From positions 1 to 54,268 of the forward strand of contig CAMWVQ010000010.1 in the NCBI GenBank assembly GCA_947177635.1: a DNA stretch of 54,268 nucleotides, read 5' to 3'. This stretch comes from an uncultured Porphyromonadaceae bacterium (GTDB taxonomy: Bacteria; Bacteroidota; Bacteroidia; Bacteroidales; Muribaculaceae). Under the pieces are notes generated by a model. It did no database searches, was not told the origin of the DNA, and worked only from the letters and a program-made list of their open reading frames with translations. Position numbers and translations under genes: made by a program. Below are positions 42,638 through 54,268 of this stretch, piece by piece. Each line of letters opens with the position of its first letter. Position 1 is the first letter of the stretch.

Positions 42638-43996
42638 ATGGGAAGACCAAAACGACTATACCCTTTGGGAAAATACAGGCTCCGCATCCGTGGGGCCGTT
42701 GACAACAATAAGCCTTATCTTGTCGAACTGGAATATACTTGGAATAGGCAGATCGTAAGAAAGGGCATGAACATATTTGTCAAGGTTGGGGATTGGAACG
42801 AAAAGCTCAATAAGGGGCGTGGCGGTGTGAAATCATCTTACGGGCCAGAGGCTAACCGGATAAATGGTGTTCTACTTAACCGAGTTGATAGAATAGATGG
42901 TTTATTAGCGGAATATTCTCAGAAATTCCCTAATCAGATTACCGCTCAACTCATAAATGACTTTCTCGCTGATAAACCTGTTATCAGGGTAGACAAAGGT
43001 AAGGATTTTGTTGAGTTTGCTATTGAACGACTAGACTCAGACTATTCTCGTAACAGAATCGGTCGAAGCCGCTATATGAATGGAAAGAGCGGAATGAATA
43101 TGTTTCAGGAATTTTTACGCTCAACTAAACGAGGCACCTACAAAAACGACAGTATTTATGTAGGAGAAATATCCGTCGAACTCGTAGATGAGTATATCAC
43201 TTGGCGCAGAGAGGTCAAACAAAACAGTGATGCAACTATCAATCATTCACTTACCCCTATTCTAAAAGCCTGTGCTTATGCTACGGAACTAAGAATGATT
43301 GATGTGGCTATCAATGCCCGAATACAGGATATGAGAATTGCCCCTAAAGTATCCTTATCTATTGATGAAAAGGAATTTGACGGTAAGAGCCTAAGTCAAG
43401 AAGAATTCTTAAAACTACTGGAGTTTTATAAAAACGATACAGAACCGCGCCGCAAAGAGTTTATAGAAATGTTCTTATTCGCTTTTCATGCCTGCGGGCT
43501 GCGTGTTGTCGATGTGATGACTCTTCAATGGGGTCACTTGGACTTTGACAAGAAGGAATTGCGCAAGGTCATGGTAAAAACAAATAAACGCCATGTAATA
43601 CCTCTGTCTGAATCCGCCATAGAAATACTGAGGAAATGGAAGAAAAAACGCCCGGACACCAAATATGTTTTTGATTTAGTCAAGGAGAACCTGGATATTG
43701 ATAATGAGGAAGAACTGTATCGCGCCAGAAACAGTGCGACAAAGTGCATTAACCAGTCGCTTAATGTTGTTGGAGAGAAACTTGAACTCAACTTTAGCCT
43801 GACGATGCACGTTGCACGCCATACATTTGCAGTTCTTGCACTCAATAAAGGATTGTCTATGACTGTTGTCAGCCGCCTACTTGGTCATGCAAGCACAGAT
43901 GTTACGGAGAAAGTGTATGCTAAATTCCTCCCGGAAACACTTTCTGCTGAAATGGGGCGACTAAGTCCTGATTTGATAATATTCAAGATGCCATAA
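42638..43996 (+). CDS. Tyrosine recombinase (integrase) of the island
   Basis: A 452-aa phage/ICE-type integrase. An N-terminal arm-binding domain (about 1-90) and a core-binding domain (about 100-215) are followed by the catalytic domain, in which R289 (CGLRVVD), a Lys in KTNKRHVIPL, H391-x-x-R394 (HVARH), H417 (LLGHAS) and Y427 (VYAKF) supply the catalytic set. All residues are present, so the enzyme may be active. Its composition is clearly more AT-rich than the upstream chromosome. No excisionase is identified. A terminator hairpin follows at 44032-44069. Confidence 0.95.
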   Translation: MGRPKRLYPLGKYRLRIRGAVDNNKPYLVELEYTWNRQIVRKGMNIFVKVGDWNEKLNKGRGGVKSSYGPEANRINGVLLNRVDRIDGLLAEYSQKFPNQITAQLINDFLADKPVIRVDKGKDFVEFAIERLDSDYSRNRIGRSRYMNGKSGMNMFQEFLRSTKRGTYKNDSIYVGEISVELVDEYITWRREVKQNSDATINHSLTPILKACAYATELRMIDVAINARIQDMRIAPKVSLSIDEKEFDGKSLSQEEFLKLLEFYKNDTEPRRKEFIEMFLFAFHACGLRVVDVMTLQWGHLDFDKKELRKVMVKTNKRHVIPLSESAIEILRKWKKKRPDTKYVFDLVKENLDIDNEEELYRARNSATKCINQSLNVVGEKLELNFSLTMHVARHTFAVLALNKGLSMTVVSRLLGHASTDVTEKVYAKFLPETLSAEMGRLSPDLIIFKMP

Positions 43997-47901: not shown

Positions 47902-48291
47902 TTACCACCTATTATTTAACAATGCGTCCCCGATTATAATTACATCAGATGAAAAAGTAATAGAAATGAGGAAGGGCCTTTTCCTATCGACATTAAATGT
48001 TTCTTTGTAATGGACAAGATAAGCACACTTGAATTCTATGATTCTTAATACATCACCAACCTCCGAATTTAGAAATTTCAATCTCCCGCTCAACGGTTTG
48101 CAAAAGCCGTTCAACATCGCTTCTACGATACTGGTATCCTTATAAACTTCTATGGAAATTGTCAATCTGCCTCCAATCACATCAGTCACTGGTCTGCCTT
48201 TTGTATCAGTTTTGCGAGAGAATTCAATCTGGTAAGAAATCACATCGAACTCTTTGCCGCCCAGTTGCACAATAGCCTTTAATTTGGCCAT
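47902..48291 (-). CDS. Orphan type VI secretion tube protein TssD (Hcp)
   Basis: A 129-aa protein matching the Bacteroidetes TssD (Hcp) tube-protein family. Telltale segments are AIVQLGGKEFDVISYQIEFSRKTDTKGRPVTDVIGGRLTISIEVYKDTSIVEAML and FCKPLSGRLKFLN, with a C-terminal IGDALLN. Hcp forms hexameric rings that stack into the T6SS tube and carry effectors. No other T6SS structural gene is in the window, so this is an orphan copy, probably serving an RHS or similar effector. Good promoter at 48380-48411. Confidence 0.85.
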   Translation of the reverse strand: MAKLKAIVQLGGKEFDVISYQIEFSRKTDTKGRPVTDVIGGRLTISIEVYKDTSIVEAMLNGFCKPLSGRLKFLNSEVGDVLRIIEFKCAYLVHYKETFNVDRKRPFLISITFSSDVIIIGDALLNNRW

Positions 48292-48542: not shown

Positions 48543-50072
48543 CTATGCTTTATATTTGTCTTTAATATGCTCGGCAATATGTTCCACTTCAGGGAATAAC
48601 GTCGATTTGTCTATTCCAAGGGCTTCAAGTTGCTTTCGAATCTTCTGCTTATGAGCCTTATTGATGATATATACTTTATAACCAAAAGCCAGTTTCGCCG
48701 GCATTCTTTTTTCTCCGTTAATTCCATATAGGAAGAATGCACCCGACTGTCGGATGATACGGGGATTGTCAAACATCGGCTTCACACAAAAGACCTTTTC
48801 AATATCTTTCGAGTCTATCACATTTTGGAAATGCGGTTTTTCGGCTTTAATCTCGTGCAGAAGATATTGTATTTCATCCTCGTTGTTAAAATCTACCCTA
48901 TCCAGTTCCCTCAGGTCTTCGATGCTGAAATCCACCGGTCTTTTGGCTATATTTGAAACCACGCTGACAGCATCGCTGTCAAAATATTTTATATCAGATG
49001 CAGACACTTCAAAACGGAATAGTTTCCCATCAACTTCCTCGTCTTCGGTCTTTCCGTTGGGTTCACAAGCAAAATATAACGCAACCAATGGATTAGTGGT
49101 GATGTCAAGTAATCGTGTAGGAACCGAATAATGTTGCATTTTTACCAGCTTTTCAAAGGTTGTGGCACAACCCTTGAAATCAGACGGACTTTGCGCAATG
49201 ATGTCTCTGAATATCCTATTCTCGTTTTCAATCAAAAAATCCTCACGATAAATAGATGGCACCAAATCATATTTCTTGTTGCTCTGTCCCCGATAAAATA
49301 TATGGACATTAGCAGTATCCTCCAATTCGTTTTCAAGTCTCTCGAAAAGAGTTCTGATACTGCTTATGCTTGATGATTCATTTTCTGGAGACCTATTATA
49401 AGCCTCGTATGAGACTTCCCATGGATGTTTGTCAAGGCGATTTATGATTTCTTCTGACAGAGCCACATAGGTTGCGTAACTGTCATAGGTATAATTCAGC
49501 TTGTTATCTCGAAGATAGGACGTGGTATGTGAGTCCAAAGGGACATATTGTTCAGGGTTCGCATAGAATAGCACTATGCTGAGTTTCCCTTTCCCGACAC
49601 TCTTTATTTCCAAGGCTTTCTGAAAGAGAGATTCATCAACATTCCCTTCCTTGAGCTGTTCGAACAAATCCCACAACACATCAATGTCTTCTATATTCCG
49701 TCTTATTTTATGGGGGAACAGATGTACTTTCATTGGATGTATTGTGGGTAGGCCGGACACATCCTCAGGTTCAGGACATCTCAGATTTAAAATCCTCCGT
49801 AATTCTTTTAAGACCTCAAGCCTACGGTGGTCCGAATGAAACTTGTTGAGGTATGAAAAAAACGTGAATGGATCAATTTCTTCCAACGTTATTTCCTTGC
49901 CTCTTTCTAGCCCATCCCGAAATCCGGAAATGCCAACGTCCTTTAGTAAGTTAATGAGGTCAGCCTGACAGCCTCGCTGCTCTAGCAGCCAATCTGACAA
50001 TTTCTTATATAACGGTATCCATGTGAATTTTTTATCCATGATATAGAGCGGTTGATTTGAAATTATTCTCAT
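48543..50072 (-). CDS. FRG-domain protein with McrB-like N-terminal domain
   Basis: A 509-aa protein. The C-terminal half holds the FRG domain: FYRGQSNKKYDLVPSIYR (about 259-276) and MQHYSVPTRLLDITTNPLVALYFA (about 312-335). The N-terminal half (about 15-215; FTWIPLYKKL, EIDPFTFFSYLNKF, DIDVLWDLFEQLKEGN, FYANPEQYVPLDSHT) resembles the region before AAA domains in McrB-like restriction ATPases, yet here no AAA domain follows. FRG domains occur in toxins and defence proteins, some thought related to ADP-ribosyltransferases. ATG at 50072 is used; MDKKF at 50039 is equally plausible. Separate transcription is likely: a terminator lies between it and the upstream gene. Confidence 0.83.
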   Translation of the reverse strand: MRIISNQPLYIMDKKFTWIPLYKKLSDWLLEQRGCQADLINLLKDVGISGFRDGLERGKEITLEEIDPFTFFSYLNKFHSDHRRLEVLKELRRILNLRCPEPEDVSGLPTIHPMKVHLFPHKIRRNIEDIDVLWDLFEQLKEGNVDESLFQKALEIKSVGKGKLSIVLFYANPEQYVPLDSHTTSYLRDNKLNYTYDSYATYVALSEEIINRLDKHPWEVSYEAYNRSPENESSSISSIRTLFERLENELEDTANVHIFYRGQSNKKYDLVPSIYREDFLIENENRIFRDIIAQSPSDFKGCATTFEKLVKMQHYSVPTRLLDITTNPLVALYFACEPNGKTEDEEVDGKLFRFEVSASDIKYFDSDAVSVVSNIAKRPVDFSIEDLRELDRVDFNNEDEIQYLLHEIKAEKPHFQNVIDSKDIEKVFCVKPMFDNPRIIRQSGAFFLYGINGEKRMPAKLAFGYKVYIINKAHKQKIRKQLEALGIDKSTLFPEVEHIAEHIKDKYKA

Positions 50073-50203: not shown

Positions 50204-51823
50204 TCAGATATTGATTGAACGTGCTCCATCACAATAATCTTGAAGATACTCATTTAAGTTGACCGGGCGATATTCGTCAAAATAGATGATATGGGCCAAT
50301 TTCTTTGCGACCTCAGGGATACTCATATGAGATGTTTTCACAACAGTTACATCGGTTTCATCATATAGCTGCTTAAAGTGCTGTATTTTCTTTTCATTCC
50401 ACTCTGAACCATATTGATATGGATTCCTTTTATTAAGTCGCTGATGAATACTTTCCGCATTAGCGGTGAGTATTATGATTTGCCCTTTGACAAGAGGTAT
50501 GTCAGATTCTGTTTTTTTAAAAGAATGCAATAATTCAATTGCTCTTTTTTGCACTAAATCACCGGAAGCTGCGTAAGTAATAGGATCTAAAGGTGAACGG
50601 TCAATCAATTGTATGCATCGATTTTCTTCGTACACGATACTGTTTTTTAATCTGAATTGCTCTGTAATCCAATCATCTAATTCTTTCCTTTCTTCGGGAG
50701 ATAACAATGTATCTGCCTTATCAAGGTTCTTATGTTTCACCCCTGGCCATTCATTACATATTTTGAAGTCCTTAAGCATTTCTAATGCAGAAGTTTTGCC
50801 AGTGCCAGGAGCACCTGAAATATAATAATTTAGAACCGGAGACAATCCATTTTCCCTTAATAAGTTTGAGAAAGCACTTTTATCCATATTAAGACACTCT
50901 CCCAATTGTTTTATGCCGTCATTATCAAGAAATAATACAATGAGGTTAAATGTATCAAAATAACTTTCTTGAATGGCCTTCATATCCTTGACGGATAAGT
51001 TGAAATTTTTGGGGTCTTTGTAGAAAATGTAATAATGATAATGGCCCGGATTAATGACAGCGGTTTGCCGTAACATATGCCTAAGGTTTTGGTCCTCTAA
51101 AGACACTCCGATAAACAACGCTGTATATCTTGAATAAAAATACATTAATGGACTATAATGGCCCATTATGCTCTCTAACAACTGATCCTGGAATGATTTT
51201 TCCGAAAAGACAAAATGATCACTAATGCCTTCTTCTATCTTTTCTGGAAGATAACCATTGGGGTGATAAATCACACTTTTGTTTAATTTGAAATTTACAG
51301 AGGGCTTATCTGTAGACACAAATTCTTTGGAAGTATAGCTCCCTGATATATTTTTATTCTCTTTTCTGAGAATTTGTTCTATGAAATTATCAAAGTTATA
51401 ATTGATGGTTATCGGCGATTTTCTTATGATGTTAAGATACTCATATAGATATGGGTGCTTAAGATTTTTGATTGACTTGCTTTTGTAAAGTTCTGTATGG
51501 ATTAGTTTTATCCAATCCATACGCATCGCATCTTCATAAAATGGTACAGTGCGGTCTAATGATGATGAGTGTTTATTCTTATAATGTTCAAAAAGAGCTT
51601 GAACTTTTGATGTAAGGGATAGATTTGACTTAAAAATAGTTTGTCCATCCACCTCCTTATTATTTGAAATGCGTTTTATCAGTTCATTCCAATTGGGGAT
51701 TTTCCAATGCCGGCTTGCTCCCGCACCCAAACAAAGCATCAACTCGTTGTCCTGATTTTTTTGATACATATGGACTACAGGCTTATGGTAGTTGCAAAGA
51801 ATCTCTTTGAATGTCTTGTTCAT
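50204..51823 (-). CDS. SIR2-like domain fused to a P-loop kinase-like domain
   Basis: A 539-aa protein. N-terminal SIR2-like domain (SIR2_2 type): GAGAS at 33-37, TINYNFDNFIE at 139-149 with N141 and D145, a candidate catalytic H187 in YHPNG, and GVSLEDQNLRHMLR at 239-252. About residue 330 on is a second domain with Walker A GAPGTGKTS (337-345), a DRS motif at 408-410 (as in deoxynucleoside/thymidylate-type kinases) and a lid-like RLNKRNPYQ at 462-470. SIR2 domains in defence proteins cleave NAD; the kinase-like half may sense or process nucleotides. Starts 4 nt after the NDT-like gene. Strongly AT-rich. Confidence 0.85.
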   Translation of the reverse strand: MNKTFKEILCNYHKPVVHMYQKNQDNELMLCLGAGASRHWKIPNWNELIKRISNNKEVDGQTIFKSNLSLTSKVQALFEHYKNKHSSSLDRTVPFYEDAMRMDWIKLIHTELYKSKSIKNLKHPYLYEYLNIIRKSPITINYNFDNFIEQILRKENKNISGSYTSKEFVSTDKPSVNFKLNKSVIYHPNGYLPEKIEEGISDHFVFSEKSFQDQLLESIMGHYSPLMYFYSRYTALFIGVSLEDQNLRHMLRQTAVINPGHYHYYIFYKDPKNFNLSVKDMKAIQESYFDTFNLIVLFLDNDGIKQLGECLNMDKSAFSNLLRENGLSPVLNYYISGAPGTGKTSALEMLKDFKICNEWPGVKHKNLDKADTLLSPEERKELDDWITEQFRLKNSIVYEENRCIQLIDRSPLDPITYAASGDLVQKRAIELLHSFKKTESDIPLVKGQIIILTANAESIHQRLNKRNPYQYGSEWNEKKIQHFKQLYDETDVTVVKTSHMSIPEVAKKLAHIIYFDEYRPVNLNEYLQDYCDGARSINI

Positions 51824-51827
51824 ATCT

Positions 51828-52259
51828 TTATTTGCAGGCTTTGTTTATATTGGTTGACATTATGGTTGACAACACTCTCTTTAATTTCGAAAGGGTTGTG
51901 ATTTGGGTACAAGACAGGTAAATCATAAGATTAACCGGCAAAAATTTACGATACATTCGTGCATCACTTCTTATACCGATAATTGGTTTCTTCATTTGAA
52001 ATGCATAACCTATTTCCCATGCAGTGCCGGAATCTACATCAATTCCATCAAGGTTCGCGACAATAATGTCTGCTTTCTGTAAATTCTCAACATCAATAGA
52101 AAAAGCCGTTTCAAGAGTGGTATTCGCAACTAGACCGACATCTCGTTGGGCCATAAAAGTCCGGAAGCCTAAGGATTGACATATCATATTAATCTTTAGG
52201 TTGTATTCGCGTTCACCTTCTGAAAATATAGGTCCTGCAATAAATACAATAGGTTCCAT
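51828..52259 (-). CDS. Nucleoside 2-deoxyribosyltransferase-like protein
   Basis: A 143-aa protein of the Nuc_deoxyrib_tr fold. Markers: FIAGPIFSEGER at 6-17, an aligned MAQRD, DIIVANLDGIDVDSGTAWEIGYA at 64-86 with the family's catalytic Glu (E82), and the KPIIGIRSD loop. Enzymes of this family exchange bases between deoxynucleosides; related domains in conflict systems cut N-glycosidic bonds of nucleotides or NAD. It is immediately upstream of the SIR2-kinase gene (4 nt), so it is almost certainly co-transcribed and functionally linked. Confidence 0.88.
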   Translation of the reverse strand: MEPIVFIAGPIFSEGEREYNLKINMICQSLGFRTFMAQRDVGLVANTTLETAFSIDVENLQKADIIVANLDGIDVDSGTAWEIGYAFQMKKPIIGIRSDARMYRKFLPVNLMIYLSCTQITTLSKLKRVLSTIMSTNINKACK

Positions 52260-52814: not shown

Positions 52815-53414
52815 CTAACCCCAAACCTCACGCCACGTATTAATATACTCGACATATCAGTACACTGTCGGGGTGTTACCTGCGAGACCGATGGGGTCCG
52901 ATGATATGTACATGCCCATTTAGGGAGAGTAGTATCGGAAGCGGTTGTAGTACAGCCCGGTCTCGGCGTCCTCGTACTGCCTATAGTAGCGGAACGGCAC
53001 CAGCTTAGGCTTCTTGGGCTTGCCGCCCAGAGTGGCCGACAGTGGTATCCCCACGTCGTTGCAGGTCATCACCAGATGGCCCTTGGGGCTCATCCGGACG
53101 CCGTCGCAGAAGACCATCTCCGAGGCGAAGAAGTTCATGCTCTCGTGACCTATCATCGCTGACATCAGGAACGGACCCACAAGCGGGATGTGCATCAGCG
53201 GGATGATAATGCCGCCGGTGTCCGAGACTCCGCGCTTCAGCCCGTTGACCGTGACGTTGGTCCCCAGGAACGGTATGTAGTCGGCAACGTCAAGGACAAT
53301 CCCTATGTAGGGATGCAGAGGGTTGAAGGGCGGTGACGTCGTCACGTGAACGTCAATCCCTACTACCATCGTCATATGACTGTCCGACAACAACATGAAC
53401 TTTATGATTACCAA
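52815..53414 (-). pseudogene. Decayed PAAR-RHS mini-gene (displaced cassette remnant)
   Basis: Open frame 53414-52920 (ATG at 53396, TTG at 53414). The N-terminal ~125 residues are a PAAR-like/RHS N-terminal region (VVGIDVHVTT, DYIPFLGTNVTVNGLKRGVSDTGGI, MIGHESMNFF, LVMTCNDVGIPLSATLGGKPKKP) of Bacteroidales T6SS RHS effectors. It is joined directly to the end of the RHS core, PFRYYRQYEDAETGLYYNRFRYYSP, where a stop lies. In the same frame the homology continues past the stop (YISSDPIGLAGNTPTVY, stop, YV...) for another 35 codons with further stops. The hundreds of residues of YD repeats expected between the two parts are missing. GC-rich unlike its flanks. Confidence 0.85.
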
Positions 53415-53878
53415 ATAGCAATGAAATATCTATGTTCTTCTCTAAAAAGGCATAGACCAGCTCGTTCTTTTTCTTTATAAATGAGAATTTCTTCGATAAT
53501 ACGATTATCTATTTTGAAGAATGAGTCTATTATTTTTTCGTAGTTTGCAATAATTAGGCTTAAATTAGTTGACAATTCAAAATGATAATCATCAAAAGGG
53601 ATGATGATTCTAAAATCAGAATCTCCATTTTGCTCAATATATTTTTTCACCAAGATGTTAAATGAGGATATAATATTGTCAACATTATCTACATAGCTCC
53701 CATCAGCTATAATTTTACTTATTATATGCGTTTCTGCTACCTTAACGAGTTCGTGGTAATCAACGCCTACATCAGTAATGTTAGAATGAGAGAATCGGCT
53801 ATCAATTAAAGAAAGCTCTTTCTCCAATCTTTTCTGGATACTCAATTTACGCAGTTCCTTAAATCTATTATTTTTCAT
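53408..53878 (-). CDS. Putative immunity protein for the RHS toxin
   Basis: A 156-aa AT-rich-coded protein, no signal peptide, with a charged helical N-terminus (NNRFKELRKLSIQKRLEKELSLID) and alternating helices and strands; ends in FIAIW. Not assigned to a known family. Its ATG (53878) overlaps the toxin stop (TGATG), the arrangement of a toxin/immunity pair. Immunity function is inferred from this position and size; a TTG start at 53887 is less likely. Confidence 0.78.
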   Translation of the reverse strand: MKNNRFKELRKLSIQKRLEKELSLIDSRFSHSNITDVGVDYHELVKVAETHIISKIIADGSYVDNVDNIISSFNILVKKYIEQNGDSDFRIIIPFDDYHFELSTNLSLIIANYEKIIDSFFKIDNRIIEEILIYKEKERAGLCLFREEHRYFIAIW

Positions 53879-54268
53879 CAATGACAACCTTTCTTTTTAA
53901 AACCGTGTATATTTTCTGGATGGTGACCCGGTAACTGATTATACTTCCCTGGGACCATAGGATTATGAGGATTTTTTGTGTTTGGTTCAGCTGCATGAAA
54001 ATGCTTACCTCTTCCATATTTATCCTCTTCATGCAAGATGACGTATTTTTTCTTACCATCCACATCAAATTCGTAAACAGTCCTGTTCTCATACTTGCTA
54101 TCAAAAACAAATTGATGAGTGGTAAATTGTGTAGAGTTGGGTATACCTGCCTGTTTTTTCGCTGCTCTAAAATTAGCTCTTCTTGATAATGCTTCCAACC
54201 CCAACCAGTCCAACCACGCATTTACGTCGCTTACATAGCCATAGAGCGTGGGGTTGTTACCGGCGATA
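53878..54268 (-). CDS. RHS polymorphic toxin, C-terminal part (continues beyond the window)
   Basis: Partial: the frame is open to the window edge. The edge codes for the end of the RHS core (AGNNPTLYGYVSDVNAWLDWLGL), then a 110-residue toxin domain: FRAAKKQAGIP, VYEFDVDGKKKYVILHEED, GKHFHAAEPN and GHHPENIHGF. The order of one Glu and three His positions fits the HNH/EndoVII-type (EHHH) nuclease toxins; the name is tentative. RHS proteins are delivered by T6SS, and the toxin is released by self-cleavage at the core end (family knowledge). Composition shifts from GC-rich to AT-rich at the core/toxin junction. Confidence 0.88.
   Translation of the reverse strand, partial: IAGNNPTLYGYVSDVNAWLDWLGLEALSRRANFRAAKKQAGIPNSTQFTTHQFVFDSKYENRTVYEFDVDGKKKYVILHEEDKYGRGKHFHAAEPNTKNPHNPMVPGKYNQLPGHHPENIHGFKKKGCH

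Follow-up and report, generated by a model that had tools for sequence, protein, structure and literature searches.

A gene for a nucleoside 2-deoxyribosyltransferase (NDT) and a gene for a protein joining a SIR2-like domain to a P-loop kinase fold form a real and conserved pair. It matches no named system in PADLOC-DB 2023 or in the literature searched, and probably serves defence through a nucleotide signal connected with 7-deazaguanine, the defence role being our inference. The pair lies in a 54,268-nucleotide stretch of DNA from an uncultured Porphyromonadaceae bacterium (Muribaculaceae; assembly GCA_947177635.1, contig CAMWVQ010000010.1, 1-54,268), hereafter the window. The co-occurrence of the two genes across distant bacteria, often beside genes of 7-deazaguanine supply, suggests an undescribed nucleotide-based and probably anti-virus system. 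Its most likely form, put forward tentatively, is a compact two-gene anti-phage module resembling Kongming and Thoeris, in which the NDT product would be passed to the kinase half and from there to the SIR2 output. The link to 7-deazaguanine genes is seen in relatives, outside the window, and is absent from an earlier annotation made from the letters of the window only (the sequence-only reading). The parts of the pair in the window are as follows.

51828-52259, minus strand: NDT-like protein of 143 amino acids (Pfam PF05014 Nuc_deoxyrib_tr, 1.1e-19)
50204-51823, minus strand: SIR2/P-loop fusion protein of 539 amino acids (SIR2_2, 1.3e-14, residues 140-275)
50867-51823, minus strand: SIR2_2 half, residues ~1-319 (G33-A-G35, Y142-N143-F-D145, Y186-H187-P-N189-G190, D244)
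50267-50836, minus strand: P-loop kinase half, residues ~330-519 (Walker A G337 to K343, D408-R409, D413, R462)

Both genes are intact open reading frames separated by 4 nucleotides from stop to start, exactly where the sequence-only reading had placed them, and the pair is single-copy in the window genome (DNA-level search). That reading had made adjacency in related islands one test of a functional unit, and an NDT gene was found in the same gene cluster at 32/36 loci encoding the SIR2/P-loop protein. These loci comprise the window, two plasmids (Rhizobium and Eleftheria) and 33 loci from a species-genome collection; as the collection was searched by two peptide patterns, the set is surely incomplete and 36 is a lower bound. 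Two loci with the SIR2 half only (L003 and L004) are excluded from every pair count. L037, which ends at a contig edge, and L039, whose SIR2 gene is broken into frames, were kept for gene order, the L039 SIR2 protein being excluded from the residue counts (35 rows) and its NDT included (32 rows). The pair occurs in Pseudomonadota, Thermodesulfobacteriota, Bacteroidota, Bacillota and Planctomycetota. NDT is directly downstream of SIR2/P-loop in 28/36 loci, upstream in four (the window, L030, L031 and L037) and missing from the locus in four; only the window has the NDT-first order with no intervening gene, one gene lying between in L030 and two in L031 and L037. For 27 loci with NDT downstream (L039 omitted; NDT starts chosen by script), the distance from the SIR2 stop to the NDT start ranges from -20 to +96 nucleotides and is at most 32 in 25/27, with the genes overlapping in 12/27.

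The distances among the SIR2/P-loop proteins correlate with those among the NDT proteins (Mantel r 0.66 over 30 loci; 0/2000 permutations as high) and the two have therefore been inherited together, co-inheritance being all that this correlation shows. The 31 aligned SIR2/P-loop relatives share 27-36% identity with the window protein, which forms a long branch (2.52) among the minimal loci of the tree (34 rows), with weak support (84/81). At 1e-10, a full-length SIR2/P-loop protein was found in the window genome only among 397 genomes of its family (none in the other 396, two of which match the SIR2 half alone); at 1e-40, the window genome was again the only one among 395 genomes of the phylum (none in the other 394). 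We conclude that the pair is a conserved unit. The sequence-only reading knew of no described system with this pair, and none was matched in PADLOC-DB 2023. Likewise, no description of an NDT and SIR2/P-loop pair was found in the literature searched, which leaves subscription journals largely uncovered, so that a description elsewhere is possible.

The NDT has the nucleoside 2-deoxyribosyltransferase fold with the catalytic Glu in DxG...ExG, and its site (D56, D76, E82 and N110 in window numbering) is invariant in the 32 rows. The nearest solved relative is DpNDT of Desulfotalea psychrophila (7O62; profile match 1.6e-56), which is 44% identical to the NDT of L016. DpNDT is named as an NDT and treated as a biocatalyst and isolated enzyme in PMC9570332.

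The fusion of a SIR2-like domain to a kinase-like P-loop domain, as proposed by the sequence-only reading, holds and can be sharpened. In the structure model of the whole protein (predicted local distance difference test, pLDDT, 89.4; predicted template modelling score, pTM, 0.90), the P-loop half adopts a thymidylate/deoxynucleoside-kinase fold, which is the assignment we adopt on the strength of the model. Pfam matches to this half are weak and all below cut-off (AAA_28 0.0038, AAA_18 0.017, nSTAND3 0.00074). The Walker A motif (GAPGTGKT) and the DRS motif (D408-R409-S410), the latter named in the earlier reading, are both present and fit the modelled fold; deoxynucleoside and deoxynucleoside monophosphate kinases are characterised by a P-loop fold of this kind together with Walker A and DR motifs, and we assume for D408-R409 the role that the DR motif has in those enzymes.

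For the SIR2 half, the nearest known SIR2 proteins are ThsA, KomC and DSR2. N143 lies opposite ThsA N112 in the profile alignment (6lhx) and is kept in 35/35 rows; the conserved catalytic Asn is present. The residue taken for it in the sequence-only reading, N141, is N in 24/35 and T in 11/35. The canonical His is gone: the ThsA His (H152 by the printed numbering, in YKMHG), presumably essential for ThsA activity, stands opposite N189, which is Asn in 35/35. The family motif Y-H187-P-N189-G (YHPNG) keeps its first His and has Asn for the second throughout, and the two SIR2 relatives of other architecture, L003 and L004, read YHVHG. H187, also singled out by the sequence-only reading, is invariant (35/35) but sits two residues before the canonical position; judging from the alignment, it might substitute for the missing His. 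Judging from PDB names and titles, the KomC H146N mutant was solved with NAD fragments, and DSR2 H171A mutants were also solved. Since the canonical His is Asn in 35/35 rows, NADase activity cannot be assumed, and the standard NADase reading of this half appears weakened. Of the earlier proposal that three nucleotide-acting activities are combined, the part concerning folds stands (all parts are nucleotide-handling folds), while the SIR2 half as a standard NAD-cleaving effector is not supported in that form.

These residues bear on a standard abortive infection, in which the SIR2 half would work as an ordinary NADase under a P-loop half that senses or regulates, NDT would make or remove a nucleotide signal, and the 7-deazaguanine genes would be incidental. 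Kinship with ThsA, KomC and DSR2, the retained N143 and the invariant H187 close to the canonical position all favour such a system, but it must contend with the replaced His and the YHVHG of the L003 and L004 relatives, with a P-loop half that is a kinase fold by model (nSTAND3 remaining below cut-off), and with the linkage to QueC and YhhQ-type genes described next. We consider it unlikely, though it survives best of the alternatives.

At 19/36 loci (18 by neighbour clustering, and L020 by a contig-end piece, L041), the operon has a third gene encoding ~400 amino acids, which is split in two in L024, L025 and L039. The L021 protein consists of DUF6884 (5.7e-46) and a C-terminal domain, and matches the PADLOC candidates PDC-M57B (7.6e-88) and PDC-M57A (1.1e-42) and, weakly, DpdC; DUF6884 is the dpdC domain according to PMC11888242. 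DUF6884 exceeds the cut-off in 27 of the 34 host genomes searched and is strong (E below 1e-20) in 19, where its coordinates are those of the operon copies (on a contig-end piece for G410); the DUF6884 search of the window genome gave no match. QueC precedes the DUF6884 gene in 10/19 loci (L008, L013, L016, L019, L020, L021, L022, L023, L027 and L032; assigned via the contig-end piece in L020). The operonic QueC keeps the SGGxDS, YPDC and Cys motifs in 10/10, and the one scanned with NCBIfam scored 159.9, above the equivalog cut-off of 150.3. In the Clostridia loci L031 (1.8e-50) and L037, a gene for a PF02592 YhhQ-type transporter lies between NDT and DUF6884, and both host genomes are without a strong QueC. 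A QueC or YhhQ-type gene is present in 12/19 DUF6884 loci. In addition, Q_salvage (PF10343) and TGT (PF01702) genes directly follow NDT in L022 (6999-9627) and L023 (6109-8387). The genome G413 carries a further full-length TGT, located on a separate contig.

Two further loci deserve mention here. In L025 (1008-7389), the SIR2/P-loop, DUF6884 and a separate second-domain gene adjoin a type IV set of the cyclic-oligonucleotide-based antiphage signalling system (CBASS), with its own QueC-like and TGT-like genes and a cyclase whose protein starts MGGTGG; the binning of L025 is doubtful, because its contig is labelled Lokiarchaeota, yet the closely related L024 is labelled Bathyarchaeota. In Pseudomonas sp. 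GM48 (L033:6077-7126, minus strand), a minimal pair lies ~0.9 kb from the only queA match of the genome.

Supply of 7-deazaguanine was also surveyed across the 34 host genomes. A strong QueC (E below 1e-30) is found in 27/34, the operonic copy being the only strong one in G398 and G413. Among the seven without (G401, G402, G414, G415 with its CBASS copy only, G420, G421 and G427), PF02592 exceeds the cut-off in four: G401, G402 (two partial pieces), G421 and G427, the sole copy being operonic in the last two. QueT, sought in 12/34 genomes, is present in G420, G421 and G427 and partial in G414. For G415, no supply gene was found among QueC (beyond the CBASS copy), PF02592 and QueT. QueC, PF02592 and TGT all occur in the window genome, away from the pair. 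With QueC so common and several genomes being incomplete metagenome assemblies, this survey shows no more than that a genome seldom lacks a supply; what is informative is that supply genes are placed in the operon.

The operon order QueC - DUF6884 - SIR2/kinase - NDT would fit a route of 7-deazaguanine modification of DNA or of its precursor pool. Here, NDT would make 2-deoxy-preQ0 from the free base, the kinase half would convert it to the monophosphate for incorporation, and the DUF6884 protein (DpdC-type) would convert the cyano group. Unmodified DNA would be policed by the C-terminal domain of the DUF6884 protein or by the SIR2 half. The DpdC amidohydrolase reaction of bacteria, phage routes through a modified deoxyguanosine triphosphate and undetected 2-deoxyribosyltransferases are all discussed in PMC6884629, and the TGT family, to which DpdA belongs, is represented after NDT in L022 and L023. 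However, insertion from the pool would not be sequence-specific, the SIR2 half and the 17 loci without DUF6884 are left unexplained, and L022, L023 and L025 are the only loci where a TGT-family gene was seen adjoining the operon (individual dpd genes were not sought). This route is accordingly rated somewhat less probable than abortive infection.

The neighbourhoods of the loci were compared with PADLOC-DB. The neighbour set holds 201 open reading frames of at least 170 amino acids (L005, L006 and the window are not in it), and 96 of the 104 nearest were scanned, eight having been dropped by hand. The control consisted of 96 of 183 open reading frames from the same genomes, drawn from 19 regions that were chosen by the authors and not at random; a twentieth region (L048), which overlaps the L033 contig stretch, was dropped. 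At 1e-15, 115 models were matched by the 96 neighbours versus 5 by the 96 control frames, a comparison to be read qualitatively and not as a gene count, because the models are redundant (one methylase matched 14) and the control is not random. Among the neighbour matches listed (25 of the 115 models) are RmrA-type (3 members), type IIG/PglX-type (2), type III restriction (2) and capP (2), while the control matched mad3 (2), an RtcR-type (1) and a type II enzyme (1). The neighbours further include three phage integrases and two IS66 transposases. The candidate defence unit of the sequence-only reading is thus upheld to the extent that its neighbours match more defence-type models than this single control, and a defence role as such would follow by inference. 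In the Rhizobium plasmid (L005:4366-9617), a gene for a KAP-type NTPase of 1212 amino acids (PF07693, 3.1e-29), QatA-like by PADLOC (4.5e-16), overlaps the start of the SIR2/P-loop gene.

Outside defence, the genes could be an operon on mobile DNA that salvages deoxynucleosides, of the queuosine type or others. The Q_salvage and TGT genes of L022 and L023 and the YhhQ-type transporter of L031 and L037 would suit it, as would the use of DpNDT as a biocatalyst (PMC9570332). A salvage role is harder to reconcile with how rare and patchy the genes are (at the cut-offs given above, 396 family and 394 phylum genomes hold no further full-length match), with the position of several loci on a plasmid or island, with the SIR2 half, and with the excess of PADLOC models around the loci (115 versus 5, with redundant models and a non-random control), and we hold it to be more doubtful still. 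Least probable is a toxin-antitoxin pair in which one protein (either the SIR2/kinase fusion or NDT) would deplete NAD+ or deoxynucleosides and the other restrain it: the tight pairing and the start/stop overlap in 12/27 are in its favour, but both proteins keep invariant site residues, needless for a pure antitoxin, the order of the two genes is reversed at some loci, and L030, L031 and L037 have one or two genes in between.

We now return to the two-gene nucleotide-signal module, whose steps would be the following. On a rise of free deoxynucleosides or deoxynucleotides, for example as a phage breaks down host DNA, the NDT, with its recognisable fold and conserved site, would move 2-deoxyribose between bases to give an unusual deoxynucleoside. 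The base attached would, from the gene linkage, probably be a 7-deazaguanine such as preQ0, drawn from the host queuosine pathway at minimal loci, the window being one of them, and from the operonic QueC or YhhQ-type gene at 12/19 extended loci. The kinase-fold half, given its fold and motifs, would phosphorylate or bind the nucleoside or nucleotide made by NDT. Finally, the SIR2 half would be switched and would act on NAD+ or another nucleotide and stop growth, an activity made doubtful by the Asn at the canonical His position. In its most specific version, the alarm molecule would be a 7-deazaguanine deoxynucleotide: NDT would join preQ0 to infection-released deoxyribose, the kinase half would phosphorylate the product, and a SIR2 half with a rebuilt site (HPNG for HxHG) would be switched. 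That full version is unlikely.

Several observations weigh against the signal module, beginning with the Asn opposite the ThsA His: being the same change as in KomC H146N, this natural Asn may leave the domain with a weak or altered NADase activity, or with none. Both the trigger and the signal are conjectural. No NDT is present in the locus at L012, L017, L024 and L025 (4/36); searches of the L012 and L025 genomes gave no NDT match, and the sole NDT of the L024 genome is a differing, truncated one on another contig. The L017 locus ends at a contig edge, and a family-type NDT begins another contig of that genome. The window NDT itself has F6 where Tyr is found in 28/29 rows (3 further rows start after this position); it lacks the N-terminal Tyr corresponding to Y7 of ChNDT, which we take to be an active-site residue and of which Y7F mutants appear in PDB titles. 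As for 7-deazaguanine, 7/19 extended loci have no operonic supply gene (L024, L025, L026, L029, L030, L038 and L039), 17/36 loci, the window included, have neither DUF6884 beside the pair nor an operonic QueC or YhhQ-type gene, DUF6884 was seen without the pair at the three plasmid loci viewed, and QueC is common anyway, exceeding the cut-off in 11/14 control genomes.

The truncated NDT of the L024 genome adjoins a partial gene for a QueT-family transporter (L068:2-646, minus strand), a further link of NDT with queuosine transport, outside the SIR2/P-loop pair family. In the window, two more features belong to the surroundings of the pair.

48543-50072, minus strand: FRG-domain protein of the PADLOC candidate defence family PDC-S15 (PF08867 4.2e-20; PDC-S15 1.5e-105)
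42638-43996, plus strand: tyrosine integrase of the island (PF00589 3.5e-23, PF13102 5e-7)

The integrase, 6.2 kb from the pair, bears out the integrase-bearing island of the sequence-only reading. The FRG gene is downstream of the pair on the same strand and absent from the neighbour clusters common to the loci; we count it as a neighbour of the unit. The Rhizobium plasmid, too, has an FRG gene near its pair, at a distance of ~5 kb (L005:15360-16976). The right edge of the window coincides with the contig end. Judged by eye, 52920-54268 (minus strand), at the right end of the island, has the look of a PAAR/Rhs-type secreted effector with immunity, and 47902-48291 (minus strand) that of an Hcp-type gene of a type VI secretion system.

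If the proposed signal module is correct, it would join Kongming as the second case of immune signalling by an odd deoxynucleotide, and would extend a signalling role to modified bases of the queuosine pathway. The pair is directly testable, since the operon is small and each step is tied to one identifiable residue, and strains that carry it include Rhizobium sp. CC1099, Variovorax sp. OV700 and Pseudomonas sp. GM48. The Rhizobium plasmid copy (pCC1099_2, 197622-199735) and the Variovorax copy are of the two-gene form, whereas the Geobacter locus L021 (6093-10206) is an extended one. The family-wide loss of the canonical His also raises the question of whether NAD+ cleavage is a constant property of SIR2-like domains in operons of this kind.

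Among known systems, Kongming uses an unusual deoxynucleotide, deoxyinosine triphosphate, as its signal (PMC12948488 and PMC12774641). The logic proposed here is alike, with NDT in place of the deaminase KomA and a kinase fold built in: the kinase is a phage protein in Kongming, whereas here it is fused to SIR2, the canonical His is Asn, and 7-deazaguanine genes accompany the pair at many loci. The neighbour clusters common to the loci are NDT, DUF6884 and QueC (not every neighbour was scanned, and KomA and the HAM1-type protein KomB were not searched by name), and the scanned neighbours of the pair in the window are the FRG gene and the integrase. In Thoeris, the partner ThsB has a TIR or TIR-like domain, whereas here it is a PF05014 NDT (1.1e-19), with ThsB models reaching only 0.016 and 0.026; moreover, SLOG or macro follows SIR2 in Thoeris, while the C-terminal half here is by model a kinase fold, and the His of the ThsA MHG is replaced by Asn. 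DSR2, among the defence sirtuins, keeps its His (H171) and to our knowledge has neither a kinase domain nor an NDT partner, both of which the pair adds. DpNDT belongs to the same subfamily as the NDT of the pair, but is presented as an isolated enzyme (PMC9570332).

The likeness to type IV CBASS (Cap9) and qatABCD (QatC) lies in a QueC-family protein within a defence-type operon (PMC13279940). Protein deazaguanylation is not indicated, since the operonic QueC has the canonical motifs that were tested in 10/10 and a Met-Gly start is not conserved among the 30 SIR2/P-loop proteins examined, with the caveat that Cap9 too keeps most canonical QueC motifs (PMC13329287). With Dpd DNA modification and PDC-M57, the shared element is DUF6884 (M57A, dpdC domain) at 19/36 loci; no whole dpd set turned up at the loci, where dpd genes were not sought one by one, and the window genome yielded no DUF6884 match. 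Finally, QueC cluster 4 has a protein of NDT and PfkB kinase in about 89% of its neighbourhoods, but its kinase is of the PfkB type where the pair has a P-loop kinase, the QueC motifs are non-canonical, and the available part of the source mentions no SIR2 (PMC13329287); cluster 4 is an independent parallel to the pair, again bringing together NDT, a kinase and QueC.

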